A stretch of 64,000 bases of DNA from Capsaspora owczarzaki ATCC 30864 (taxonomy: Eukaryota > Opisthokonta > Filasterea), in contig NW_011887295.1 of the NCBI RefSeq assembly GCF_000151315.2, forward strand, positions 1,130,544 through 1,194,543. Direction: 5' to 3'. Below are positions 4,538 through 59,402 of this stretch, piece by piece. The notes beneath the pieces are model-generated. The model was not told the origin of the DNA. It worked only from the letters and a program-made list of their open reading frames with translations, and ran no database searches. The first letter of the stretch is position 1. Each line of letters opens with the position of its first letter. The translations under genes and the position numbers were made by a program.

Positions 4538-7316
4538 GGGCCTCGGACGCTGGCGTCGATGTCGGCGGTGGAACCAACGCGTCGTCCCGCGAGCTGCTCT
4601 TCACCGCCTGCAAGTCCGGCGACCTCAAGCTGCTGAAGGAATGCCTGGCCGTGTTCAAGCCCGCGCAGATCGTGACCATGCTGGACGACGACGGCTGGGG
4701 TCCGTTCCACTTTATTGGTAAAAAGAAAAAACAGAGTCCCATCCACGCAAAACAAAAAAAAAAAAAAAAAATCTCGTTGTGCTGCGAATCTTCAACTTTT
4801 TTGCATCGAGGGTTTGTATTTCCTTGATTTTGGTTTTGTTTGACTTACTCGGTCTCACTTGTCCGTGTGTGTGTGTGCGCACATACCACTCTCTTTGACG
4901 CAGCAATGAAGGGTCACCTCGAATTGGCCAAGGCGATGGTTGCGCACGGCGTTCCTGTGGACATTCGCGACAAGTATGGCACGACGCCAATGTACCGTGC
5001 TGTTGGTTTCGGTCATCCCGAAATGGTCTACTACCTGGTGGCCAATGGTGGCAATGTTCATCATCTCAATGACGCCGGCGACAAGTAAGCGCAGCCACAG
5101 GGGGTCGGGATGCCATTTTAACTTTGTGTGGAAGAATTCTCTCAATTCGTGTTGCTTTTGGCATGGAACAGCATGATCCACAACTCGGGATGGGCTGGCG
5201 GTGTCGAGTTGACTCGATTCTTCATTAGCAAGGGTGTGTCGCCGACCGCCAAGGACAAGGCCAATCATCTGGGCTTGATGGACATGGTAACGAGCTGCCT
5301 TATACTTACAATCTCCCATCACGGAAGTTGTTGAACTCGATCTCACTTTCACAACGCTTGTGTTTTGTTTCTTGTAGATCAAGACCATGCCAAATGTCTG
5401 CGGAGAGTTTTTCGACTCGCGCGTCAAAGTGCTCGACAAGTACTTGCTCGCAGTGCATTCCGAGTACGATTTTGATGGCATTGACGACCAGGACGATGAT
5501 GTCAAGGAGATTACCCCGCTTGAGATTATCGTGAAAAAGTCCAACCACGATCTCATTGGCCATCCTCTCATCCGCAAGCTGTGCCAGTGGAAGTGGGAAA
5601 CGTTCGCGCGCAGCTACTTTTTGCGCCAGTTCTTCTCCTACCTGTTTGCCTTGGCCTGCTTGACCTACAGTACGTGCGAGCAAAATGTGCTTGGCCATGT
5701 GGCGGGGGGCGGGGTTGCACGAACATTCTCTCATCCTTGTTCTTCGACATCTGCGCATTCCAGTTTGCATCTCCATCATTGCCTACCCAGGAACCGTCCT
5801 CTACATTTATGACGACCCGCAAACCTACGTTCGTGGTATTCTCGAAATCATTTTCGTCCTGTTCGTGTTTCTGCAGGTTTACAACGAGACGCAAGAGGTA
5901 GGACCATACTTTTGGCACTTCTAGCTGGAACTTTGAGTGACCTTCTTGCATGAATGAGCTCACTTCAAACGCTGCCACTGTCGCACTGTGTAACGTTGTG
6001 AATTTCACCTTGTGATCCAGTTCATTGACGCCGGTCGAGACATTGTGCGTGTGCCCAGCGGTCCCGCAGGCTGGATTCTGCGAATCATCTTCCCAAAGGC
6101 GGTCGACCCAGCCCTTGTGAATGCCGCTGCTGTTTCCATTCCGCGCTACTTCCGCGATCTTGGCAACGTTTTCGATCTCAGCACGTACTTGATGGTCATT
6201 GTTGATCTGGGCTTCCGCATCGCCAACATTGTGGCGTACAAGAACGGCGATCCCCCGAAGGTCGGTGCGCTGTACGAGTACAATGTTCTGGCCATCATTT
6301 CTGTTCTGTTCTGGACCAAGTTTTTGCGCATTGCCGCCCTGTTCAAATCCACTGGTCCCTTGATTGAGACCATCAAGCGCATGCTGATCGATTTGATCAT
6401 CTTTATGGCCATCTTCACCGTCTTCCTGATGGGCTTTTCCATCTCGTTCTTCCTGCTCCTGTCGCCCGAGGTTTCTCCTCCGATTGCCGCGGCTGGCACA
6501 CCCGACTATGAGAGCTTCCAGCAGTCGTTGCTGACAGTGTTTTTGGGTCTTGTTGGCCAGCTGAACACGGATCCCTTCCGCCTGGCAGACAAGTCCGTGG
6601 CCTACATTGGCTACGTTGTCTACATTATCATTTCCAACATTGCCTTGCTGAATTGTGAGTGACAAATTCGAGGCGTGTCGTTCCAAGATGCTTGATGCTT
6701 GTCGTTTTGCTGACTATGTTTGTTTGGTGTTGTTTGTTTTTGTTTGTTTGTTTTTGTTTGTTTGTTTTTTGCGTGCTTCTCGTGCTCGTTAGTGCTCATT
6801 GCCATGCTCAGCAACACGTATGCCACTGTCAAGTACGTGTCGGACTTGGAGTTTTTGCTCGTGCGTGCCCGTTACATTTTGGCCGTGCAAAAGTCTCTCG
6901 GCAAGGCTCGCGTGCGCAAGATCCGTAAGAAGCGCTTTGTGTGTCTTGAGAGTGCTGTTGGGCTGTTCGTTACAGAACGAGTTGTATGCTGACCCGTTGT
7001 GTTTCTGTTGTTTCTCCACAACACTCATTTTTTGGCAACAGTCGCCGCCGACTTGAAGAAGCGAAAGGCTCAGGCGCGCAGCGTGACCAAGGAGAACAAC
7101 ACGCCCGAGGCCGAGCTCACTACCACCGACAAGTACTCTGAGTGGATCAAGCTGAAGGAAACGGAAGAGCCTCGCGAAGTCAACTTGCAGCTGCTCCGTG
7201 ACGATCTGCAAAAGATGTCCAACCTGCAGTTCGAAGAGGTGCACGCCGCTTTCGACAAGCTGTCGGACACGATCAAGTTGTTAAACGAGCGCATCGATCT
7301 TTTGGTTGCCAAATAA
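4538..7316 (+). CDS. ankyrin-repeat TRP-family cation channel, tandem copy 1
   Basis: Seen: exons about 4538-4717, 4904-5084, 5172-5286, 5378-5669, 5764-5897, 6021-6654, 6793-6924 and 7042-7316, all GT-AG and in phase. The N-terminal part has ankyrin-like units (DGWGPFHFIAMKGHLELAK). Six hydrophobic segments follow, then a pore region near GLVGQLN and the S6 segment NIALLNLLIAMLSNTY, typical of TRPV/TRPC-like channels. A charged C-terminal tail may form a coiled coil. The start is unresolved: the first coding stretch opens after a stop and a likely acceptor (cag at 4535-4537), so an upstream exon carrying the ATG is needed. It is followed directly by a paralogue with the same exon pattern. 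Role by family: non-selective cation channel in the plasma or an internal membrane; gating unknown. Confidence 0.85.
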
Positions 7317-8212: not shown

Positions 8213-10971
8213 ATGGAGGAGGCCGCTGCGGGCAGCCCGTTGGACAACGCGCTCTTTGCCGACTGCAAGGCTGGCAACCTGAAGATTCTCTTGGAGCAGC
8301 TGGCCGACCTCAAGCCGTCGGTTGCCGGATCCATCCTTGACTCGGATGGCTGGGGACCTTTCCACTACATTGGTAAGGTTAATCAGGGAGCCTGTACTGG
8401 GCTGTCTCAGTGTTGAGGTCGGATGTTTTCGCAGCGATTTGCGTTTTTTTCGCTTGTGTCTGTGATGGTTTTTTTGTGAAGGTTTTTTTTTTTCTTCTTC
8501 TTCTTTGTTATGGGATTTTTCTTGTGATGGTTTTTTTCTGCTTGTGATGGTATTTTGAACGCTCGTGATGGTGGTTGGTCGAATTTGAAATCTGTCAAAT
8601 TGGCGTGACACAAACGAAGAGGTGGCAAATTGATCAATCGAACGATCTTTTTTGTTGTGGACCATTCCGCCCAAACTCACGGTGCGTTCTTGTTTTTGTG
8701 CCACAGCCATGAAAGGCCACATCGAGCTGGCCAAGGCGATGCTCGCACACGGTGTGCCTGTCGATGTTCTCGATCGATTCGGTGCCACCCCAATGTACCG
8801 TGCGGTCGGGTTTGGCCAAGTCGCGATGGTTCACTTTTTGGCCGAAAACGGTGCCAATCCTCTCGCCGTCAATGAATCAGGCCACAAGTAAGTTCGAGTC
8901 CGGAGGGGGGTCCTTGTGTGCTGCTCAAAGCGTGTTGGAACATCTCGCTCACTTGGCTGCAAAAAAAAATCGACAGCATGCTTCACAACTCTGCGCGCAA
9001 TGGCAACTCGGAGCTGACTGAGTTTTTCATCAGCAAGGGCGTATCTCCAATCCACAGAGACAACGCAAGCCACACTCCACTGATGGATATGGTAATAAAA
9101 GCTGGCATTCTGCAGCCGAAACTGGAAAACCAGTCCGGTTCTTGTTCTTCTCACAATCTTGTCACTTTTTTTTTTCGCACTCGGCTAGGTCAAAAACACC
9201 CCCGAGGAGTGCGTCAAGTGGCTCGACACGCGAACCAAGGTGCTGGACAAGTACATGCTGATGGTGCACTCGGAGCACGACTTTGACGGCATCGACGATC
9301 TGGATGGTGCGACCGGCGACATGACCCCGTTGGAATTGATTGTCAAAAAGCGCAACCACGAGCTCATTAGCCACCGTCTCATCCGGAAGCTGTGCGACTG
9401 GAAGTGGAGAGTGTTTGCCCGTCGCTTCTTCTTGCGTCAGTTGCTCGGGTATCTGTACGCGCTGGGACTTTTGACCTACAGTACGTGACAAGCACCGAGC
9501 GCACGAAACGTTTTTTCGATGATTGCACTGAGCAACATATTTTTTTCTGATTGTTGCTCTTGTGCAGTTTGCTTGGCGGTTGTGGCCTTCCCTGGCACAG
9601 TTCTTTTCATCTACGACAGCTCCCAGGCGTACTTCCGCGCGGTCATCGAGATTCTGTTCCTCATTTTTGTGTTTTCGCAGCTCTTTGACGAAATTATGGA
9701 GGTAATGCCACAGTCCGAGTGCCAGAATGTGTTCAACCCTGCACTCACATCTCTGTGCGTCCCTACCCCCATCGCCTAGTTTATCAATTCTGGAAAAGAC
9801 ATTGTCCACGTACCCGCGGGTGCCGGCGGATGGCTGCTGCGCGTCTTCTTCCCGAAAGCCATCGACCCTGCGTTTGTGCATGCACGCTCCGTCTACGTGC
9901 CCCGCTATCTGCGCGATCTTGGCAACGTGTTTGATCTGACCACCTACTTTATGGTAGTGATTGACATGGGCATGCGCATTGCCAATATTGTCGCGTACGA
10001 ATCTGGCAACATCCCTCCAGTCTCGGTGCAGTACGAGTACAACGTCCTGGCCATGGTGGCAGTTCTGTACTGGACCAAGTTTTTGCGCATTGCCGCTCTG
10101 TTCAAGGTGACTGGTCCGCTTATCGAGACGATCAAGTACATGATGGTCGATTTGGTCATTTTCATGGCAATCTTCACCGTTTTTCTGATGGGCTTTTCCA
10201 TCGGGTTTTTCGTTCTTCTGTCGCCCAACTCTTCCGCGCCCATCGCAGCAGCGGGCACCCCAGATTACGAGAGCTTCCAACAATCGCTGCTCACCGGTCT
10301 CCTTGGCCTGTTTGGCGAGCTCAACCTGAATCCCTTCCGCGTCGCCGACAAGTCTGTGGCCTACCTCGGCTATGTCGTCTTTATTATCATTTCCAACATT
10401 GCCCTGCTCAACTGTATGTTAGCGTCGCCTCGTTGGACGTACCATCAGTTCCCACCACACTCACAAACATCTTTTTGGATTGCAGTGCTCATCGCCATGC
10501 TCAGCAACACGTACGCAACCATCAAGTACGTATCGGACAATGAGTTCTTGCTCGTCCGAGCCCGCTACATTCTGGCCGTCCAGAAAAACCTGGGCCGGAA
10601 GAATGTCCAAGAGCAACGTAAGAACAACCATTTTGTTTGACTTTCAAAAGCTCTGGTTGCTGACTTGTGACTTGTAACTCGACACACGCACAGTTGCGGC
10701 CGACTTGAAGCGCCGGGAAGCCCAGCACACGCAAGTGATTACTGAAAACAACACTCCTGAGGCTGAGTTCACCCACACGAACAAGTACTCTGACTGGACC
10801 AAGGTCAAGGAGACTCAGGAACAGCGCGAGGTCAACCTCCAGTTGCTCCGTGATGACATTTTCAAAATGTCCGGCAAGCAGTTCCAGGAGATGCATGAAG
10901 TCTTTGGCAAGATGGCCGCGTCCATCGAGCGCCTGGAAAAGCGTATGGCCAGGATGGAGACCCATGCATAA
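8213..10971 (+). CDS. ankyrin-repeat TRP-family cation channel, tandem copy 2
   Basis: Seen: exons 8213-8372, 8707-8887, 8977-9091, 9189-9480, 9568-9701, 9780-10413, 10486-10617 and 10694-10971. They sum to 642 codons with phases that fit, giving a 641-residue protein starting MEEAAAG. Ankyrin-like units (residues about 10-170) precede a six-segment channel domain with the S6 motif NIALLNLLIAMLSNTY. The polar tail ends in a heptad-like helix (ERLEKRMARME). Six consecutive internal exons have exactly the same length as in the upstream copy (181, 115, 292, 134, 634, 132), so the pair arose by tandem duplication of a whole intron-containing gene. This copy has a clear ATG and is the better model for correcting the first exon of copy 1. 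Confidence 0.9.
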
Positions 10972-26689: not shown

Positions 26690-29191
26690 ATGTTTCGCCT
26701 CGCTGGACTCGCAACAAGCGTCAGCTGCAAACGCGGCCTGACCTTCACCACGATTGCTGCTGCTGCTCGATCTGACAAGAGCTCAATGCGCCTGTTTGCG
26801 CACAGTAGTACTGCGACCCAGACCCAAGCCCAGACCCATCCCCAAGCCCATCATACCCAGAATGATGACAACTTCCAGGACAAGAGCGCTCCACTGCGCG
26901 CAGACATCAAGCTGCTTGGCCGGGCGCTGGGCGACACCATCCGTGCGCGCGACGGACAGGCAACCCTCGACCGTGTGGAAGAGCTCCGCGCGCTGTCCAA
27001 GGCCTGGCGCCGCAACGGGACGGGCGAGTCGTTTGACGCGCTGGTTGCCGCGGTGCACCGGTTGGACGCGACTCAGATGCACAGCGTCGCGCGCGCGTTC
27101 TCGCACTTCCTGGCGCTTGCAAACACTGCAGAGCAGCACCATCGAGAGCGCAGGCGGCGATCAGCGCGCATCCAAGAGGCCGCCGCTCATGCACCGCCCC
27201 CCAATCCGCTCAGCACTCCGACGGGTTTCGGCGCATCTGCTCCGGCGAAAGCACTCGAGGGCGCACAACCGGGAATGCTGAACAGCACTACTGCTGCAGG
27301 TGTGCTGCGTGAGCTCACACAGGGGAGCGCACCCGGATTCGACCAGCCAGCACCAGTCGTCGTCGACGCTAACGCAGTTTTTGAGACCCTGTGCGACTCG
27401 ACCGTGGAGCTCGTCTTCACTGCGCATCCAACGCAAGTCCATCGTCGAACAACGCAGCGCATTTTCGTGTCGGTTGCGGCGGCGTTGGCGCAGCGTGATC
27501 GCACAGAACTGCCCGAGGAAATCGCCGCTGCCGAGGACGATCTGCGCAGGCAAGTCGCACTCTTGTGGACGTCAGACGAAGTGCGACGCGAAAAGCCCAC
27601 TCCCGTCGATGAAGCCATTGCTGGATTGCATGTGGCCGAGCAGGTCTTGTGGGAGGCAGTGCCACGCTACTTGCGCTCGCTTTCGCTGCGCATGGAACAA
27701 CTCCTCGGGCGGCCGCTTCCTCATCACCTTTCGCTGTTCAAATTCGGCTCTTGGCTTGGCAGCGATCGCGATGGCAATGCGTTTGTCACGCCCGACGTGA
27801 CACGAGATGTCATTCTCCGCGGCCGATGGATGGCTGCAGAGCTCTTCTACCACGATGTGGATGCCCTCTACTATGAGCTTTCCGTCACCTCATGCAACGA
27901 GGCGCTGCAGCGGCATATCGGCAAGCAGACTGTCGCCGAGCCGTATCGCGAGGTTTTGCGCGTTCTGCGCGAAAAGCTGCGTTTGACGCGTGATCTTGCT
28001 CGACAACAGCTGCAGAGCCTTGGACAATCGTCCATCCTCACCCACGGAGGCGCTTACAGCCCACACCCCGCTGAGACGGCGACGCAAGCAGGCTCTTTGC
28101 CGGCATCCAGCAGCAGTCGTTCCGATGCATCACCATCGCTCGTTACATGCTCGAATGATATTCTGGAGCCATTGGAATTGTGCTACTCATCGCTAGTGGA
28201 CGTCGGACTGGCAAATGTAGCGCAGGGACGCCTGCTGGATACCCTGCGGCGTGTGCGAGTCTTTGGCTCGGCTTTGTTCCACTGGGACATTCGCCAAGAA
28301 TCGACCCAGCATGCCAAGGCTCTCGATGCCATCACCAGGTACTTGCGGCTGCCCGTCTCGTACGGCAAAATGACGGAGGCAGAGCGCGTTGCATTCCTGA
28401 CTGCTGAACTCGAGTCTTCCCGTCCCCTCATCCCGTTCGCCTTCACACGCGATCCAGCCATTCTTGCTTGGCTTCGTGAGCAGTTTCCGGAAGACGCCAA
28501 CATGATTGTGGATGTCATTGATACCTTCCAGATGATTTCCGAGCAGCATCCAGAGGTCCTGAACGCCTATGTCATCTCGATGACCCGCGATCCCTCCGAT
28601 GTGCTTGCCGTTTACCTGCTTCAAAAGGCCGCCAACGTTCGCGTGCCATGTCGCGTCGTTCCCTTGTTCGAAACCGTCAATGACCTTGACAACTGTGTCG
28701 GTGTCATGCGGCGTCTGTTGGACAATCGTGCGTATCGTCGCATTGTCAATGGGTTCCAGGAGATTATGATTGGCTACTCGGATTCTGCCAAGAGTGCAGG
28801 TCGTGTGGCTGCCAACTGGGCCATCTTCAAAGCCCAGCAAGGTTTGGTCACGCTGTTTGAAGATGCGAACGTCCGGCTCCGTCTCTTCCACGGCCGGTAT
28901 GTTTCGATGGGTCTTGTTTGAGTTTGTAGAGGCTGTGGGCGTTGTTTGCTGGTGTTGGGAAGGCGGGAGGGGACGGGGGAAAGGGCGGATGTGGCTTTGA
29001 ATCTTGTCGAGCTCACGTTGTTGTTTTTTGACTGTTTGGTTCTTTTTAGCGGTGGATCCGTCTCGCGCGGCGGGTCTGAGGGTCGCGCGGCATTTTATTC
29101 GATTTTGGCGCAACCTGCTGGTTCAGTCAACAAGTATATTCGTATTACTGAGCAAGGAGAGGTTGGTGCAACTTTTGGCCAAATGTTTGTT

Positions 29192-51897: not shown

Positions 51898-53232
51898 ATG
51901 TCCAAGCAGCTCCTGAACATTATGAACTCTAGCCTTCTGACGCCGGTGCCGTCCATCCCCACGACACCACTGTCGCCCTCGCCCTCGGCGGCCATGCTCG
52001 CGTGCGGCGCCTCGTACCCCAACGTTGCTGCACGCATTGCCGAGCGTCCGACCGCCACTCGCGTGCTGTCCATTTTCGGCACCCGCCCCGAGGTGATCAA
52101 GTTCTACCCCGTGCTCAAGGAGATGGACAAGCGCTCTGAGAGCATCCTCTCCATCACCTGCGTCACGGGCCAGCACCGCCAGATGATTGACCCGCTGCTC
52201 TCGCTCTTTGACATTGCCACGGACGTCGACCTCAACCTGATGACCCAGGGCCAGACGCTCTCCAACCTGTCTGCGCGCCTCTTCCTGGCGCTCGCGCCCG
52301 TCTTTGAGGCTGTGCGCCCGCACCTCGTGCTCGTCCAGGGCGACACGACCACCGCCATGATTGCCGCCATGTGCGCCTTCTACTACCGCGTGCCTGTGGG
52401 CCACATTGAGGCTGGTCTGCGCACCAACGACCGCTACAACCCCTTCCCGGAGGAGGTCAACCGCCGCATTGTCTCGGTCGTTGGCAACCTGCACTTTGCG
52501 CCTTCGTCCTACGCCGCCGACGCCCTGCGCGCCGAGCGCATCGACATGAACACGGTCTTTGTCACGGGCAACCCCGTCATTGACGCCATCATGCTGATTC
52601 GCGAGAAGGTGCCCTCGGCAGCGGCCCGCCAGCTGCTCGACCGCGTCGAGGCTGCCGACGCCGCCACCAACGCCGTCCTGCCCGCCGGCCAGAAGGCCCG
52701 TCACATTCTGCTCACTGCCCACCGCCGCGAAAACCACGGCGAGGGCATTGCGGCCATCTGCCGCGCCGTCAAGCGCATTATCGCCCAGCACAAGGACGTC
52801 CACATCTGGTACCCCGTCCATCTCAACCCCGCCGTGTGCGTGCCCGTCCGCCAGGAGCTGGGCAAGATGGAACGCGTCCATCTGCTCGACCCGCTCGAGT
52901 ACGACGTCTTTGTCCACTTCCTCGACCGCATGTACATGGTCATGACCGACTCTGGCGGCATCCAGGAGGAGGTCACCGCGCTTGCCAAGCCCACCATTGT
53001 CCTTCGCGAGACCACCGAGCGCCCCGAAGGTGTCGATGCCGGTGTTACCAAGCTGGTTGGCATCAATGACGACACCATCGTCAAGGAAGCCACCCTGCTG
53101 TTGACGGACGACCAGACCTTTGCCGCCATGTCGCGCAAGTGCTTCCCGTTCGGCGACGGCACTGCCGCCCAGCAGATTGTCGACATTTTGCTCACCTCGC
53201 TATCGACCAACAAGCTGAGCATTGGCGCATAA
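51898..53232 (+). CDS. non-hydrolysing UDP-GlcNAc 2-epimerase, bacterial WecB type
   Basis: Seen: one exon, 444 residues, starting MSKQLLNIMN. After a 55-residue Ser/Pro/Ala leader the enzyme core shows every WecB hallmark: FGTRPEVIKFYPV, TGQHRQM, VQGDTTTAM, GHIEAGLRTN, NPFPEEVNRR, VTGNPVIDA, TAHRRENHGEG, MTDSGGIQEE and ETTERPEGVDAG. The residues known from the E. coli enzyme are kept (Arg of GTRPE, Asp of GDTTT, Glu of EAGLRT and PEE, His of HRRE). Reaction: UDP-GlcNAc to UDP-ManNAc, cytosolic. Codons end mostly in C or G, as in the next gene, so it is well adapted to the host. I start at 51898, because upstream sequence in the same frame is low-complexity leader. Bacterial origin with later amelioration is likely. 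Confidence 0.95.
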   Translation: MSKQLLNIMNSSLLTPVPSIPTTPLSPSPSAAMLACGASYPNVAARIAERPTATRVLSIFGTRPEVIKFYPVLKEMDKRSESILSITCVTGQHRQMIDPLLSLFDIATDVDLNLMTQGQTLSNLSARLFLALAPVFEAVRPHLVLVQGDTTTAMIAAMCAFYYRVPVGHIEAGLRTNDRYNPFPEEVNRRIVSVVGNLHFAPSSYAADALRAERIDMNTVFVTGNPVIDAIMLIREKVPSAAARQLLDRVEAADAATNAVLPAGQKARHILLTAHRRENHGEGIAAICRAVKRIIAQHKDVHIWYPVHLNPAVCVPVRQELGKMERVHLLDPLEYDVFVHFLDRMYMVMTDSGGIQEEVTALAKPTIVLRETTERPEGVDAGVTKLVGINDDTIVKEATLLLTDDQTFAAMSRKCFPFGDGTAAQQIVDILLTSLSTNKLSIGA

Positions 53233-54523
53233 GGCTTTGATCTCCCCCGCCCGCCCGCTGCTGCGTTGTCACGCATGTGGGTTTGGTGTTTTTTTTTTTT
53301 TTTTCTACTTTTCACCTTTTTTTTTTCTTTCCTTTTGTGTCTTCTTTGTTTTTCTTTTCCTTTTTTCCGCCTTGGTATCCACGTACCTCGGCTACGTCCC
53401 TGTTTTCCATTTGCCCGTTTGTGGGCCAATCATTGTTACGATGTAAAAAAAACAAGACAGCGAAAAACCCGCCGTGACTCACCACACCTTCCACGTTGTG
53501 CGATGGTGACCACCAACTGGTTTTTTTTGGCCTGGTGATCAAAGCCAACGTTGCTTGGGTGTGGGTGAGTGAGTGAGTGTGTGTGTGTTTGCGTGTCTGT
53601 GTCAATGTGTGTTTGTCTCTTGTTAGTTTTCCCCCTTTTTCTTATTCACCGACTGTGGTGTCTGTAGCTTTGTTTGTTTCTGGTTATTAAATGAGCTTTG
53701 CAACGAGATCCATCCATCCATCCATCCATCCAACCATCGAACCATCGGCATTAAAAACTCGCACTTCTTTTTATCTGTTTGTTTTTTTGCGGGTCAGCTG
53801 CACACTTTAACACCCAAAAAATATAACACCCGCTCCAAAACAACAACAACAACAAAAAGAAAAAGCAACAAAGCGATCGATCTGGTCGTCAAGCACTGAA
53901 CTTCTGCAGCGAGTTGTCTCTCTGGATCTCGAGTCTGGTTTCTTCCAAAGTCGGTGGTATTGTGTTGTTCATGCAGATTTGATTTTTCGTTGTCGATTTC
54001 CTCGGCGATTCAGTCTCTCTGCTGCTGTTGCTGCTTTGACTTGTCGCGTGCAGGTTGTCAAGTTCGCTTCACACACGAAAAAAAGTTGTCAGTTTCATTT
54101 AGGCTTTTTTCCGCGGGGTTTTTGCTTTTTCAACCCCCCCACGACGCCGACGCAATCCGCTCCACCCCTCGCTTGTGGGTCTGCGTTCGCGTCAAACTGC
54201 CTTCTCTTCCTATGCACGCATTTGCCCCCCCCCCCTGACTCACGGACTGGAAACGCAAAACGGCGACCGTGCCCGCCGCTCCCTTTACTTTTTTCCATTT
54301 TTTTTTTTCGCCCTCACTCTCCCCTTGTTTCACCTTTATTTTTTGTCATTTCGTTTTTTTGATCTCGATTGGACTCTAAAACGAGAGACTTGTCCAAACG
54401 CAGAGGGGAAAACGTGGATTACTCGCTCGGCGTTCCGGTTTCATCCAACACTGAGTGACTTTGCGTTTGGGTTCACTTTTTTTTTTTTTTGGGTTTTGCT
54501 GCCTTTTCCATTGGCTTTCGTTC

Positions 54524-54569
<46 letters not shown>

Positions 54570-55011
54570 CGCAGCGTCAAGGTCTCTCACTCGCTCTCTC
54601 ACTCTCGCTCTCACTCTCTCTCCTTCGTTCGTCCCTCTGTGTGGCTTCCAACACACAGCCGCGGCTCCCCCCCCCTCCAAAAGTCTCATCCACGCCGTTC
54701 GCATGCCAGTTTTCAACTCACCCTCACTCAACTCAACTCAACTCTGCCCTTCGACTGTTTCACTGACTTTGGCATTTGTAACAATGACCACTACAGATCA
54801 AGTTGTCATCGAGCTGATCTGTGCTTGTTAGAAGCTGGCGATCAAGTCTCGCGCAAAGCACTCCGTTTCCTCAGTCTCAGTCTCTGGCCCGCCGCCTTCC
54901 GCTCGTGCTCCTGCTCCTGCTCGTGCTCCTGCTCCTGCTCCTCCTGCTCCTCCTGCTTCCTCACTCCTCCTGCTTGCTCGAGCAACCATCCATCGCATCG
55001 ACACAATCAAC
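53233..55011. other. 1.8-kb intergenic region, T-rich
   Basis: 3' UTR of the epimerase and leader of the transporter. It includes a CCAT repeat near 53708-53731 and a long T tract near 54524-54569. A TCC/TGC repeat lies just before the transporter ATG. No gene or RNA feature seen. Confidence 0.55.
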
Positions 55012-56112
55012 ATGGTGCAAGAGGCAAACCACCCGCCGCTCGTCCGCGCAGGCGCAGCGCTCTTCTACGCCACCACGTCGCTCGCCATCATTTTTGTCAA
55101 CAAGATTGTGCTGACAACGTACGGGTTTCCATCGTTTAGCTTCCTGGCGCTTGGGCAATACATTAGCACGGTCGTCTCGATTGGCATTGCCAAGCAGCTC
55201 GGCTACGTCTCCTTCCCGTCATTCTCGTTCGCCGTCGTGCGGCAAACACATCCGCTTCCGCTCGTCTTCTTGGTCAACACGGTCACTGGCCTGGGTGGCA
55301 CAAAGATGATCAATCTCGCCATGTTCACCGTGCTCCGTCGCTTTACCATCTTCTTGGCCATGATTGCCGAGTACTACGTCCTGGGCAAGCAGTCCACCTC
55401 GATGGTCAAGATGAGCGTCTTTTTGCTCATCTTTGGCGCCTTGGTTGCCGCCGGCAACGACTTGGTCTTTGACGCGCTCGGATACACGCTCATCATGGTC
55501 AACAATCTGTGCTCGGCACTCAACTGCGTCTTTATCAAGCAAAAGCTCGACTCCAAGTCGCTCGGCACCTTCGGCCTGCTGTACTACAACAACCTGATCT
55601 CGCTCCCCATCCTCATCGCCACCCTGTACTTTGTCGACGGCCACCAGATTGGCCCCGTCCTCAACTTCCCTGGCTGGCGCGACCCCACCTTTGTCCTGCT
55701 CTTCCTGCTCGCGTCGCTCATGGGCTGCATCCTCAACGTCTCCATTGTCGTCTGCACCAAGATCAACTCGGCCCTGACGACCATCATCACCGGCTGCCTC
55801 AAGAACATTGTCACCACCTACGTCGGCATGTTCCTCGGCGGCGACTATGTCTTCTCCATGGCCAACTTTGTCGGCTTGAACATTAGCATCTCGGGCTCGC
55901 TGCTCTACTCGTACCTCGAGTACCAAACCGCCACGTCCAAGCCCTCCATCGTCCAATCGCCCCCGCCGCTCCCCGTGAGCATCAAGGCCTCAGAGTTCCC
56001 GCACGACAACAGCAGCAGCAGCAGCAGCAGCAGCACGCTTCATCATGTGCCTCATGCGCACGCCCACGAGGGTGGTCAGCATGCAAACAATTGGGTGACT
56101 GCCTCCAAGTAG
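55012..56112 (+). CDS. SLC35D-type nucleotide-sugar transporter
   Basis: Seen: one exon, 366 residues, about ten hydrophobic segments. Segments closely follow the UDP-GlcNAc/UDP-GlcA transporter group: SLAIIFVNKIVLTTYGFP, FPSFSFAVVRQTHPLPLVF, NLAMFTVLRRFTI, FIKQKLDSKSLGTFGLLYY, CTKINSALTTIITGCLKN, and MFLGGDYVFSMANFVGLNIS. The KQKLDSK and NSALTT motifs are diagnostic of SLC35D1/D2. Expected role: exchange of UDP-sugars (GlcNAc, GlcA, GalNAc, perhaps ManNAc) for UMP across ER or Golgi membranes. The C-terminal tail has Ser and His runs. It lies between a UDP-GlcNAc epimerase and a glycosyltransferase on the same strand. A GTT repeat follows the stop. Confidence 0.93.
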   Translation: MVQEANHPPLVRAGAALFYATTSLAIIFVNKIVLTTYGFPSFSFLALGQYISTVVSIGIAKQLGYVSFPSFSFAVVRQTHPLPLVFLVNTVTGLGGTKMINLAMFTVLRRFTIFLAMIAEYYVLGKQSTSMVKMSVFLLIFGALVAAGNDLVFDALGYTLIMVNNLCSALNCVFIKQKLDSKSLGTFGLLYYNNLISLPILIATLYFVDGHQIGPVLNFPGWRDPTFVLLFLLASLMGCILNVSIVVCTKINSALTTIITGCLKNIVTTYVGMFLGGDYVFSMANFVGLNISISGSLLYSYLEYQTATSKPSIVQSPPPLPVSIKASEFPHDNSSSSSSSSTLHHVPHAHAHEGGQHANNWVTASK

Positions 56113-56128
56113 TCCGCTTTCTTCTGCT

Positions 56129-56131
<3 letters not shown>

Positions 56132-56180
<49 letters not shown>

Positions 56181-56188
56181 GGTTGTTG
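56132..56188. repeat. (GTT)n microsatellite
   Basis: About 17 GTT triplets just after the transporter stop codon; probably in its 3' UTR. Confidence 0.95.
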
Positions 56189-56353
56189 TCCCTCGTTGTA
56201 TCCAAAAAAAGTCGTTGGTTGTCGCATTGGATTGAGTTTGTTTTTGCTTGTCACACTTAATGGAACACAGTATTAAGCCCCACACACGCAGTACAGTACA
56301 TACAGTACCAATTCAAGTCAGTCTCCCTTTTGTCATCGTTGACGAGTCATACA

Positions 56354-59300
56354 ATGCGGTGGCGGTCGAATCGCCGGGCCGCATTGGCCGGACTCGGACT
56401 GATTCTGTTCCTGCTATTTCTGATTGGGCCTCCAGGAGGACAGGACACTGTTACTCAACGGACACTGTCGCCCCACAATGTCAACTTTGTTGCTGAGGGC
56501 GTCGGCCAACTGGACCGAGACAACGGCGACCGCTCGAGCAGTCCCGCCGAGCTGCTTGCTCAAATCCAAAGTCTACAAGTGCAGCTGCAGGCCAGCCGGG
56601 ACGAACACGAGCAGCTGCAGCTGCAGCTTCGCAGTGCACAGTCGAATCGCCGTCGCGAGGAAGCGCTTCAGCCCCCGCTGTTGCCACCCGGTTCAGAGCC
56701 TCAAGTGCCGGCCCTTCCGTCCGACAGTGCATCTTGCGACCATTCCTGCCGCTTGTGGGACGAGTTGCCAGAGTACATTCCCGCGCCTGTAAGGCGCTTC
56801 GGCTGCTCGACCGCCTTGATGAGTTTGACGTGACGTGTCAAATCGGTTGTTCGACTGACTCTTTGTTGTCTGTCCTTCCTTCTGCTTGCTATCAAATTCT
56901 TAAACACATTAGGTGGTGATCAACGAGGCTGGACGCACAGAATCCAACTTGAGGCACAACAACAACAATAACAACAACAACAACCTCCTCGTCTCAAGGT
57001 TTGTGGATCGCGAGCCCGTCTCCAGCCCACGATGCAACCTCGTCGTCGCTGTTATAATGGAAAGCAACAACATGACGTACGAATGCTTCAGTCCCGAGAG
57101 CGAGCTGTACGCACTGCATCCAAAGACCTGGCTGGCACAAGTCTCGGCGCGCGTGCCGGACTTGCTCATCGTCGAGTCCGTGTGGCTTCAGCCCTGGACG
57201 AGTCGTGCATTTGAGCGTTCTTCGGGCAGATCGGCCGTTGCGTTGCGCGAGCTACTGGCATGGTGTCGAGCACGAGGAATCCCCACCATCTTTTGGAACA
57301 AGGAGGATCCTCCAAACTTTGACCGGTTTGGTCTGCGCAACCGCTTGATTCGCAGCTTTGACTTTATCTTCACGACAGAGGTCGCCCTTGTGACGCGCTA
57401 CCAGGAGCTCGTGGGGCACAAGCGCGTGGCGGTTCTCCCGTTCGCCGCACAACCCTGGCGACACACCCCGATCGGCCGCAAGCGCGACACTGTCGCCCCT
57501 CTGTCAGAGTTTGTGTTTGCCGGAAGCTTTGCCTTCACCTCCAAGTACTTTGACCGGAGCAAGCATCTGGCCATGCTGCTGGATTCGGCCGTCAAGTACG
57601 GCACAGTGACCATTTTCGATCGCTACGTGACCGCGGCCATGTATCCCAGCTACATTAAGCCGTTTCCAAAGCGATTTCGTCGGTACCTGCGCTCGGCCGT
57701 CACGTACAAGTCCATGATGGATTTGTATCGCCAGTACAATGTGATGATCAACGTCAACTCGATTCACAACTCGGCGTCCATGTTTTCGAGGCGCGCGCTC
57801 GAAGCCTTGATGAGCGGTACTCCCGTGCTCTCCAACGCTTCGCCGGCCCTTCAAGCCATGCTCGACTCGAATGGAATTGCGATTGCCCACACCTCTGAGC
57901 AGGCAGACTACTGGGCAGACCTCCTCGCCACCTGTGCACTCGAGCGCGAGCAGATGGCGGTTCGTGCCAGGCGACGACTGTTGCAGCGGCACACATACCG
58001 GCATCGGTTTGACAGCATACTTGAGGTCATTCTTGCACACGTCAAGGAGGCACCTTTTCGGACGGCGCTCGCGTCAGCGCGCAACGAATTCCAGCCGTTG
58101 CAGTTTGCCAATCCTCCGTTGGGCGACAGCACGATTGTTCGTCAGAGGATTGACCAGGTGTGCTCCCCAATGCCTCGTCGCGTTAGTATTGTTTACGTCC
58201 TGCAACCATCCGAAAATCTTCTGGCGGCGTTGGAGCGCCAAACTCGACAGCGAGCCGAGTTTGCGCTCTTGCAAACGCAACGACAGGCCGAGGAGCAACA
58301 GCAGCCACAGCCACAGCCACAGCCACAGCCACAGCCGCTCGATGGATCTGCAGAAGAGGAGGACGACGAGTCAGACAGCAGCGCTCCCATGGACGATGAG
58401 ACTGAGCTTTCTGCGCGGCAAGCGCCCGCATTCGGCAACCGAGCAGAGGGGTCCGAGTGGAGCTGGGCCAACACGGACTGTGACGTGGGCCAGGTTGTGA
58501 GGGTGCTGAACATGGTGGGCACGTTTACCTACGATGACTTTGAGCTGGTCTTTGCCGACTCGGTGCCAGGCCTCGTCGAGTGCAACATGCGCGAAATTAT
58601 CGCCTGGCTTGTGGCGGAGTATCCTGGACTCGTAGGCCGCGTGCGCTTCGTCTCTACTGCGACAGGAGAGCGTTCAGCTCGCACACGGGCGCTTCCGATG
58701 GGGGCCTGTTACAATATCCTGCTCCAGTCTGGCTCATTGACGGGCTCGCACGTCCTGTTTCTGAACGGCCGCCATTTCTACGGACCCAACTTTCTCACGG
58801 ATGCCATGCATGCCTTCACGCACACTGACGCGGAAATTGTCGGCAAGAGCGCGGCGTTTGCTCTTGCCTTCGAAGCAGGCAACCACACGCACACCCGCAG
58901 CGCTGCAGACGCTCTTGATTTAGATGCCGCAGGCGAGCAGGAAGCCGGCACTACCTCCACGCCGAGCTGGCCAACTGTCTTGCACCGGTATCAGCCGTCG
59001 CTTGAGTTTGAGTACGTTGACGTGATTGGCGCGCCTTATTCGGCGGTGATTGCGCGCACAGCGCTAGACCGACTCGGCCGCAACGATTGGGCAAGTAGTT
59101 CTCTCGGAAGCGTCGCATTGCCTCGTGGTCCGTTCAATCCGGTACATGGACAGTGGCGGGCTCGCGGTGTCAGCGAACGCAACAACATGGTGCCCGGTGC
59201 TGACGACGTGCGCCGCCAGGGTGCGCTCGATGCATTGGGGGAGTGGCTGATTGCTGCGCAAGCCGCTGGAGTCACAATGTACTCGGCTGACCGTTTCAAC

Positions 59301-59402
59301 TATGTCGCGACGGTCTCGACCACCACTCCCGACGGCGTTGTGCACCACCCAGAGCTGCGCTTTTCCGACACCACCATTCGACCCAACGTTGTGCTTGTCT
59401 GA
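56354..59402 (+). CDS. type II membrane glycosyltransferase, CgeB-like plus GT2-like domains
   Basis: Seen: exons 56354-56788 and 56913-59402, 974 residues. A single N-terminal signal anchor (ALAGLGLILFLLFLIG) and a coiled-coil stem suggest a Golgi enzyme. Domain 1 (about residues 165-530) has FWNKEDPPNFDRF, FDFIFTTEVALVTRYQ, AVLPFAAQPWRHTPI and SASMFSRRALEALMSGTPV, as in bacterial CgeB/Glyco_trans_1 enzymes. A Pro-Gln repeat linker follows. Domain 2 (about 560-950) resembles the GT2 module that often follows in bacteria (GACYNILLQ, FYGPNFLTDAMHAF, AEIVGKSAAF). Odd: the expected acidic metal-binding cluster before FYGPN reads NGRH, so the GT-A part may be inactive. Donor and acceptor are unknown. 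An Asn run (N9) lies just after the intron. Confidence 0.75.

Follow-up and report, generated by a model that had tools for sequence, protein, structure and literature searches.

An adjacent WecB-type epimerase, nucleotide-sugar carrier and anchored CgeB-GT2 glycosyltransferase in Capsaspora owczarzaki: candidate parts of a bacterial-derived UDP-ManNAc/UDP-ManNAcA pathway

The stretch of DNA analyzed here (the window, 64,000 nucleotides from contig NW_011887295.1 of the filasterean Capsaspora owczarzaki ATCC 30864) carries, at positions 51898-59402, three adjacent plus-strand genes that encode a WecB-type UDP-N-acetylglucosamine (UDP-GlcNAc) 2-epimerase, a nucleotide-sugar carrier and a CgeB-GT2 glycosyltransferase with a signal anchor. 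An earlier note on this DNA had proposed that such a trio could lead from cytosolic UDP-GlcNAc through UDP-N-acetylmannosamine (UDP-ManNAc) into the Golgi and onto an acceptor. Open reading frames (ORFs) and family profiles confirm that all three genes are real and arranged in this way, and genes 1 and 3 do have the bacterial relatives that had been expected of them. The proposition that the block belongs to a bacterial-derived pathway for UDP-ManNAc and UDP-N-acetylmannosaminuronic acid (UDP-ManNAcA) that feeds Golgi glycosylation is, in our estimate, evenly poised; if so, the glycans of this protist may carry an unusual sugar of bacterial style.

Gene 1 (51898-53232, 444 aa) is a single exon that starts at the first ATG of its open frame. 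It scores 412.1 bits against the WecB model TIGR00236 (cut-off 210.15) versus 58.3 bits against the NeuC model TIGR03568 (cut-off 235.9), in agreement with its original description as a non-hydrolysing WecB. It matches 26 sequences in the PDB, with UDP-GlcNAc 2-epimerases at the top; the best eight, each carrying that name, score 336-346 bits, and CapG and the UDP-2,3-diacetamido-glucuronic acid epimerases score 93-108 bits. In the 27.46 Mb genome (29 contigs, the block being on contig C4) there are at least three PF02350 genes, namely gene 1 and copies on contigs C5 and C8. All are WecB-type, with WecB scores of 412.1, 412.9 and 390.1 bits and NeuC scores of 58.3, 61.6 and 62.8 bits, none of which reaches the NeuC cut-off.

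The C8 copy is 90% identical to gene 1, with which it forms a recent duplicate pair, and hydropathy reveals no N-terminal membrane anchor in either protein. The C5 copy, on the minus strand (C5:439366-440412; L001:1399-2910), is 41% identical to gene 1 and has a hydrophobic segment near its N-terminus (residues 14-32). Its open frame covers 525 aa, or 504 aa from the first ATG, and its start is bounded by an upstream stop codon. Such an anchor would put a UDP-GlcNAc 2-epimerase in the lumen of the endoplasmic reticulum or Golgi, so that import of UDP-ManNAc, as pictured in the earlier note, need not be the sole supply of this sugar to the lumen. In a quick tree, six divergent bacterial rows split from the WecB group with a Shimodaira-Hasegawa-like approximate likelihood ratio test (SH-aLRT) value of 100, and the C5 protein forms a long branch. 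A single clade of all three host WecBs is allowed (approximately unbiased test, p-AU 0.824, run after removing seven rows), and these trees, which name no bacterial donor, would be compatible with a common origin of all three.

The third gene is longer than had been described. Its glycosyltransferase ORF is real, but an upstream first exon starting at 56354 had been missed. Exon 1 (56354-56788) encodes a short basic stub, a hydrophobic segment at residues 9-27 and, judged by eye, a glutamine-rich stem. A predicted phase 0 intron of 124 bases with GT..AG ends (56789-56912) separates it from exon 2 (56913-59402, an 829-aa ORF), and the joined frame is open across 974 aa. The signal anchor expected of a Golgi enzyme is thus found by hydropathy.

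Exon 2 encodes a CgeB half followed by a GT2-derived half. The description of gene 3 as a CgeB/GT2 glycosyltransferase holds for the first of these, which scores 56.0 bits against PF13524 (cut-off 25), but needs qualification for the second, which lacks the DDDD metal site and by itself has no Pfam match at E<=1. Its GT2 nature therefore rests on bacterial relatives, five of seven scanned (L045, L043, L078, L032 and L069, but not L058 or L104) matching PF00535. When the four host sequences found are aligned with 80 bacterial ones, the metal site is gone from every host copy (LNGRHF, LDPSRHY, PNVRHY and LDPVQF). All four aspartates are present in 31 of the 80 bacterial rows and none in 14, a count that includes L094, which has no letters at the site and was excluded from the CgeB-GT2 tree. 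The loss is thus common to many bacterial members, including L058 (CESRHY), which has wecB and wecC beside it. The absence of DDDD from every host copy suggests that just one half of gene 3, CgeB, is probably catalytic. The motifs FWNKEDP and RRxxE are invariant across the gene 3 protein and 58 bacterial rows.

At least six PF13524 matches occur in the genome. Besides gene 3, those on C1, C5 and C6 have the same two-half architecture; of two on C10, one is presumably PIG-A-like and the other is a different GT4 protein. Each of the four host CgeB-GT2 proteins carries a single N-terminal hydrophobic segment, the layout of a type II Golgi enzyme. The four form one clade (SH-aLRT 100 in a quick tree that leaves the bacterial sister open), in line with one acquisition followed by duplication.

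The middle gene (55012-56112, 366 aa, single exon) matches the TPT family PF03151 at 48.6 bits (cut-off 30). Its description as a eukaryotic transporter stands at the level of the SLC35/TPT family; its closeness to SLC35D is our own assumption, since the profile supports TPT only. Two PDB sequences are matched, both GDP-mannose transporters, with a match to a solved one at E 1e-17. Gene 2 reads GCLKN at the place of GALNK, which we take to be the motif of GDP-mannose transporters. Two paralogs (58% and 48% identical) are present in the genome. As a separate observation, the different GT4 protein of C10 (C10:219601-223374) and an SLC35D-like carrier (C10:236736-237617) lie about 13 kb apart with genes between them.

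An association between WecB and CgeB-GT2 genes exists independently in bacteria. Among 467 confirmed bacterial CgeB-GT2 loci, the best 80, close strains included, were analyzed with flanks of about 3 kb or sometimes less; their CgeB-GT2 proteins are 30-38% identical to the host protein over the best segments. A PF02350 epimerase occurs in the flanks of 12 of the 80. Eleven of these epimerases show 40-54% identity, and that of L067, which falls outside the WecB group, shows 31%; some are fragments cut by the end of the locus. A nucleotide-sugar dehydrogenase is found in 31 of the 80 loci, seven of which have an epimerase as well. In six loci from three phyla (L045, L058, L059, L068, L078 and L106), wecB and an adjoining wecC precede the CgeB-GT2 gene on the same strand; with the WecC model (cut-off 459), the six dehydrogenases encoded there reach 582-674 bits. 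Seven of ten bacterial dehydrogenases compared with NCBIfam models lie above this cut-off, with the remaining three at 402-427 bits. Furthermore, the dehydrogenase domain PF00984 is the commonest non-glycosyltransferase family among neighboring ORFs in each of three batches (10/87, 7/98 and 9/81), with PF02350 found 4, 4 and 1 times in the same batches. For this tally 266 of 304 ORFs were scanned and 38, mostly short or overlapping, were omitted by eye; the L102 epimerase match, which has an internal stop, was kept out, and one L045 reference was trimmed to its matched part. DUF6270 (PF19786) also recurs beside bacterial CgeB-GT2 genes (8 of the 266 scanned ORFs).

A candidate for the corresponding dehydrogenase exists in the host genome, which has two PF03721 genes: an ordinary UGDH on C1 and a 190-residue fragment at the tip of C13 (C13:1-571, minus strand; L113), where the contig end cuts off a WecC-like N-terminal half. 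Two UDP-ManNAc dehydrogenase models give the fragment 149.0 and 133.7 bits, compared with 80.4 for TviB and 78.7 for TuaD, and the general NDP-sugar dehydrogenase model gives it 175.7 bits; its 149 bits come from 190 residues, and the WecC cut-off of 459 applies to the full length. According to one published study (PMC4794789), three residues of the S. aureus enzyme (Glu117, Arg152 and Pro155) are group-specific for UDP-ManNAc dehydrogenases, and other dehydrogenase groups mostly have Lys/Arg, Phe and Glu at these sites. When the three positions are placed by motif spacing, a mapping of our own, Glu, Arg and Pro are all present in the C13 fragment, as they are in six WecC-type bacterial sequences whose genes neighbor CgeB-GT2 genes; the host UGDH has Lys, Phe and Glu. 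In each of the 22 bacterial loci with an N-terminal match to both host dehydrogenases, the WecC-like fragment scores higher; three loci matched the UGDH alone, and in L034 the UGDH scores higher over the full length.

The WecC-like fragment, together with the prominence of dehydrogenases among bacterial neighbors, most of those compared being at WecC level, argues that UDP-ManNAc is probably an intermediate. The claim that this sugar is made agrees with the WecB type of gene 1, but UDP-ManNAc as the end point does not hold up as well, since it is probably oxidized onward. The pathway that we infer, in which substrates, products, location and every catalytic step are read from family resemblance, begins with the unanchored WecBs (gene 1 and the C8 copy), which would convert UDP-GlcNAc to UDP-ManNAc in the cytosol. 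The dehydrogenase of C13, of which half a gene is seen, would then oxidize UDP-ManNAc to UDP-ManNAcA, and gene 2 or one of its paralogs, acting as an SLC35-type carrier, would bring the nucleotide sugar into the Golgi. There the CgeB halves of the four anchored CgeB-GT2 enzymes, gene 3 included, would attach ManNAcA or ManNAc to glycans, the GT2 half being a presumptive non-catalytic remnant, and the anchored C5 WecB probably makes UDP-ManNAc within the lumen from imported UDP-GlcNAc. It is possible, at somewhat less than an even chance, that surface or secreted glycans carry ManNAcA or ManNAc, with WecB and WecC of bacterial origin producing it, a duplicated family of membrane-anchored CgeB-GT2 enzymes adding it in the Golgi, and one anchored WecB supplying UDP-ManNAc within the lumen.

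Several observations weigh against this pathway, and it is weakest at the missing half of WecC, the substrate of the carrier and the donor that the CgeB half would use. WecC is known from its first 190 residues only, on a different contig from the trio, and the central domain PF00984 was found across the assembly only in UGDH, leaving the catalytic part of WecC unseen, including any GGHC catalytic motif. No match to GT26 (WecG/TagA), a potential user of ManNAcA, was found in the genome, and no donor for any CgeB-GT2 enzyme was found named in the open-licence literature. Only one of the three WecB genes adjoins a CgeB-GT2 gene. In bacteria, the loci whose sequences fall closest to the host clade (L032, and also L066, whose upstream flank is cut at 13 bases) show neither epimerase nor dehydrogenase, and the linkage as a whole was obtained from the best 80 of 467 loci without a matched control, when genes of these kinds are frequent in bacterial glycan clusters. 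The codon use of the C13 fragment correlates at 0.83-0.88 with gene 1, the C8 WecB and UGDH, at 0.75 with gene 2, at 0.63 with gene 3, and at 0.17-0.70 with five bacterial dehydrogenases, a control that favors the host but in which the host and bacterial ranges overlap. Bacterial contamination as the source of the fragment is nonetheless judged unlikely from this codon use and from ten listed protein-kinase matches on C13, the closest 49 kb from the fragment; the contig tip itself is less certain.

The individual genes could also be explained without a pathway through UDP-ManNAcA. Adjacent eukaryotic genes are mostly unrelated, and the trio could be chance neighbors: a housekeeping carrier for UDP-GlcNAc or UDP-glucuronic acid, a glycosyltransferase whose donor is UDP-GlcNAc or another common one, and a WecB with no relation to either. 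Consistent with this, the remaining genes of the WecB (two), CgeB-GT2 (three) and SLC35D-like (two) families are scattered, no second trio appears by coordinates among these copies on C1, C5, C6, C8 and C10, and the 1.8 kb that separates gene 1 from gene 2 leaves room for separate promoters. However, random placement of at least three WecB, at least four CgeB-GT2 and at least three SLC35D-like genes would give 0.0066 WecB/CgeB-GT2 pairs and 8e-6 trios within 7.5 kb, figures that are post hoc because the families were chosen after the trio was seen, and both bacterial-type families are linked in bacteria in the uncontrolled survey above. We regard chance adjacency as rather improbable. A shorter route, in which gene 2 carries UDP-ManNAc itself into the Golgi for use by gene 3 and the dehydrogenase fragment is unrelated or non-functional, draws on the clear WecB type of gene 1, the lack of a dehydrogenase within the trio, and the five of 12 epimerase-positive bacterial loci that have no dehydrogenase match in the examined flanks. 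It appears unlikely, given a WecC-like fragment with the diagnostic residues in the same genome and on a host contig, and bacterial loci that have dehydrogenases more often than epimerases (31 versus 12 of 80).

Instead of UDP-GlcNAc, the epimerases might take a modified sugar as substrate, such as a 6-deoxy-L-hexosamine or a 2,3-diacetamido sugar. PF02350 includes such enzymes, as the lower-scoring PDB matches of gene 1 illustrate, and there is a precedent in Megavirus Mg536, which was annotated as a UDP-GlcNAc 2-epimerase and then assigned to 6-deoxy-L-hexosamines, as a report on giant viruses describes (PMC9614988). This history calls for caution in reading any substrate from family membership. 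The top eight PDB matches of gene 1, far stronger than those to the modified-sugar enzymes, and the separation in the quick tree between the WecB group and the divergent bacterial rows make this reading very improbable for the host proteins.

A hydrolysing GNE or sialic-acid route was also considered and set aside. The only PF02350 genes found are WecB-type, so no hydrolysing GNE/NeuC was seen, and NeuB has no match in the genome, in an assembly that is incomplete. Stealth phosphotransferases were considered as another candidate user of UDP-ManNAc; the genome has one match to them, on C1 with LNR-like repeats in its frame, and this protein is presumably GNPTAB-like. Among phages, 19 records were obtained for gene 1, every one below 60% identity, and no record for exon 2 of gene 3. 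Scans of viral contigs with the short peptide patterns A1, P0002 and P0001, the latter two of which reach close relatives only, returned no relative, and PADLOC gave no match for genes 1 and 3 that would suggest a defense system. A viral route for WecB is still conceivable, since both a UDP-Glc dehydrogenase and a WecB-like protein are reported from giant viruses of the Klosneuvirinae (PMC9614988).

Elsewhere in the window, two similar plus-strand ORFs at 6012-6650 and 9798-10583, with IFPKAVDP and FFPKAIDP stretches, are probably tandem paralogs, and a plus-strand ORF at 26813-28828 is phosphoenolpyruvate carboxylase-like (PF00311, E 1.4e-148).

No eukaryotic pathway to UDP-ManNAc or UDP-ManNAcA was recognized among the titles and abstract openings listed by searches of an open-licence full-text library. 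If the proposed pathway is correct, UDP-ManNAc and UDP-ManNAcA would join the nucleotide sugars of eukaryotes, ManNAc-type sugars would be reached without a hydrolysing GNE, and a multi-gene bacterial glycan pathway would have been adapted to secretion by the addition of signal anchors. The host epimerases share PF02350 membership with animal GNE and bacterial NeuC, but differ from them in their sub-threshold NeuC scores and in the missing NeuB partner. The carrier resembles SLC35D and Vrg4-type GDP-mannose transporters in its TPT family and in its match to the solved structure, but its motif differs. The giant-virus genes of Klosneuvirinae and Megavirus offer a parallel, in that a WecB-like epimerase alongside a UDP-sugar dehydrogenase has been reported from a virus of eukaryotes (PMC9614988); the host genes, unlike these, are cellular and had no close viral relative in the narrow pattern scans. 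Gene 3 retains the identity level and the invariant motifs of bacterial CgeB-GT2 proteins, to which the host adds a signal anchor, and it has in common with many of them the loss of DDDD. A parallel in pathway terms is with the bacterial WecB-WecC system of enterobacterial common antigen and capsule, which leads from UDP-GlcNAc through UDP-ManNAc to UDP-ManNAcA. The host genes differ from that system in being eukaryotic, in having one anchored WecB and a partial WecC, and in the missing GT26 match, but they resemble it in the WecB scores and in a WecC-like half that carries all three diagnostic residues.

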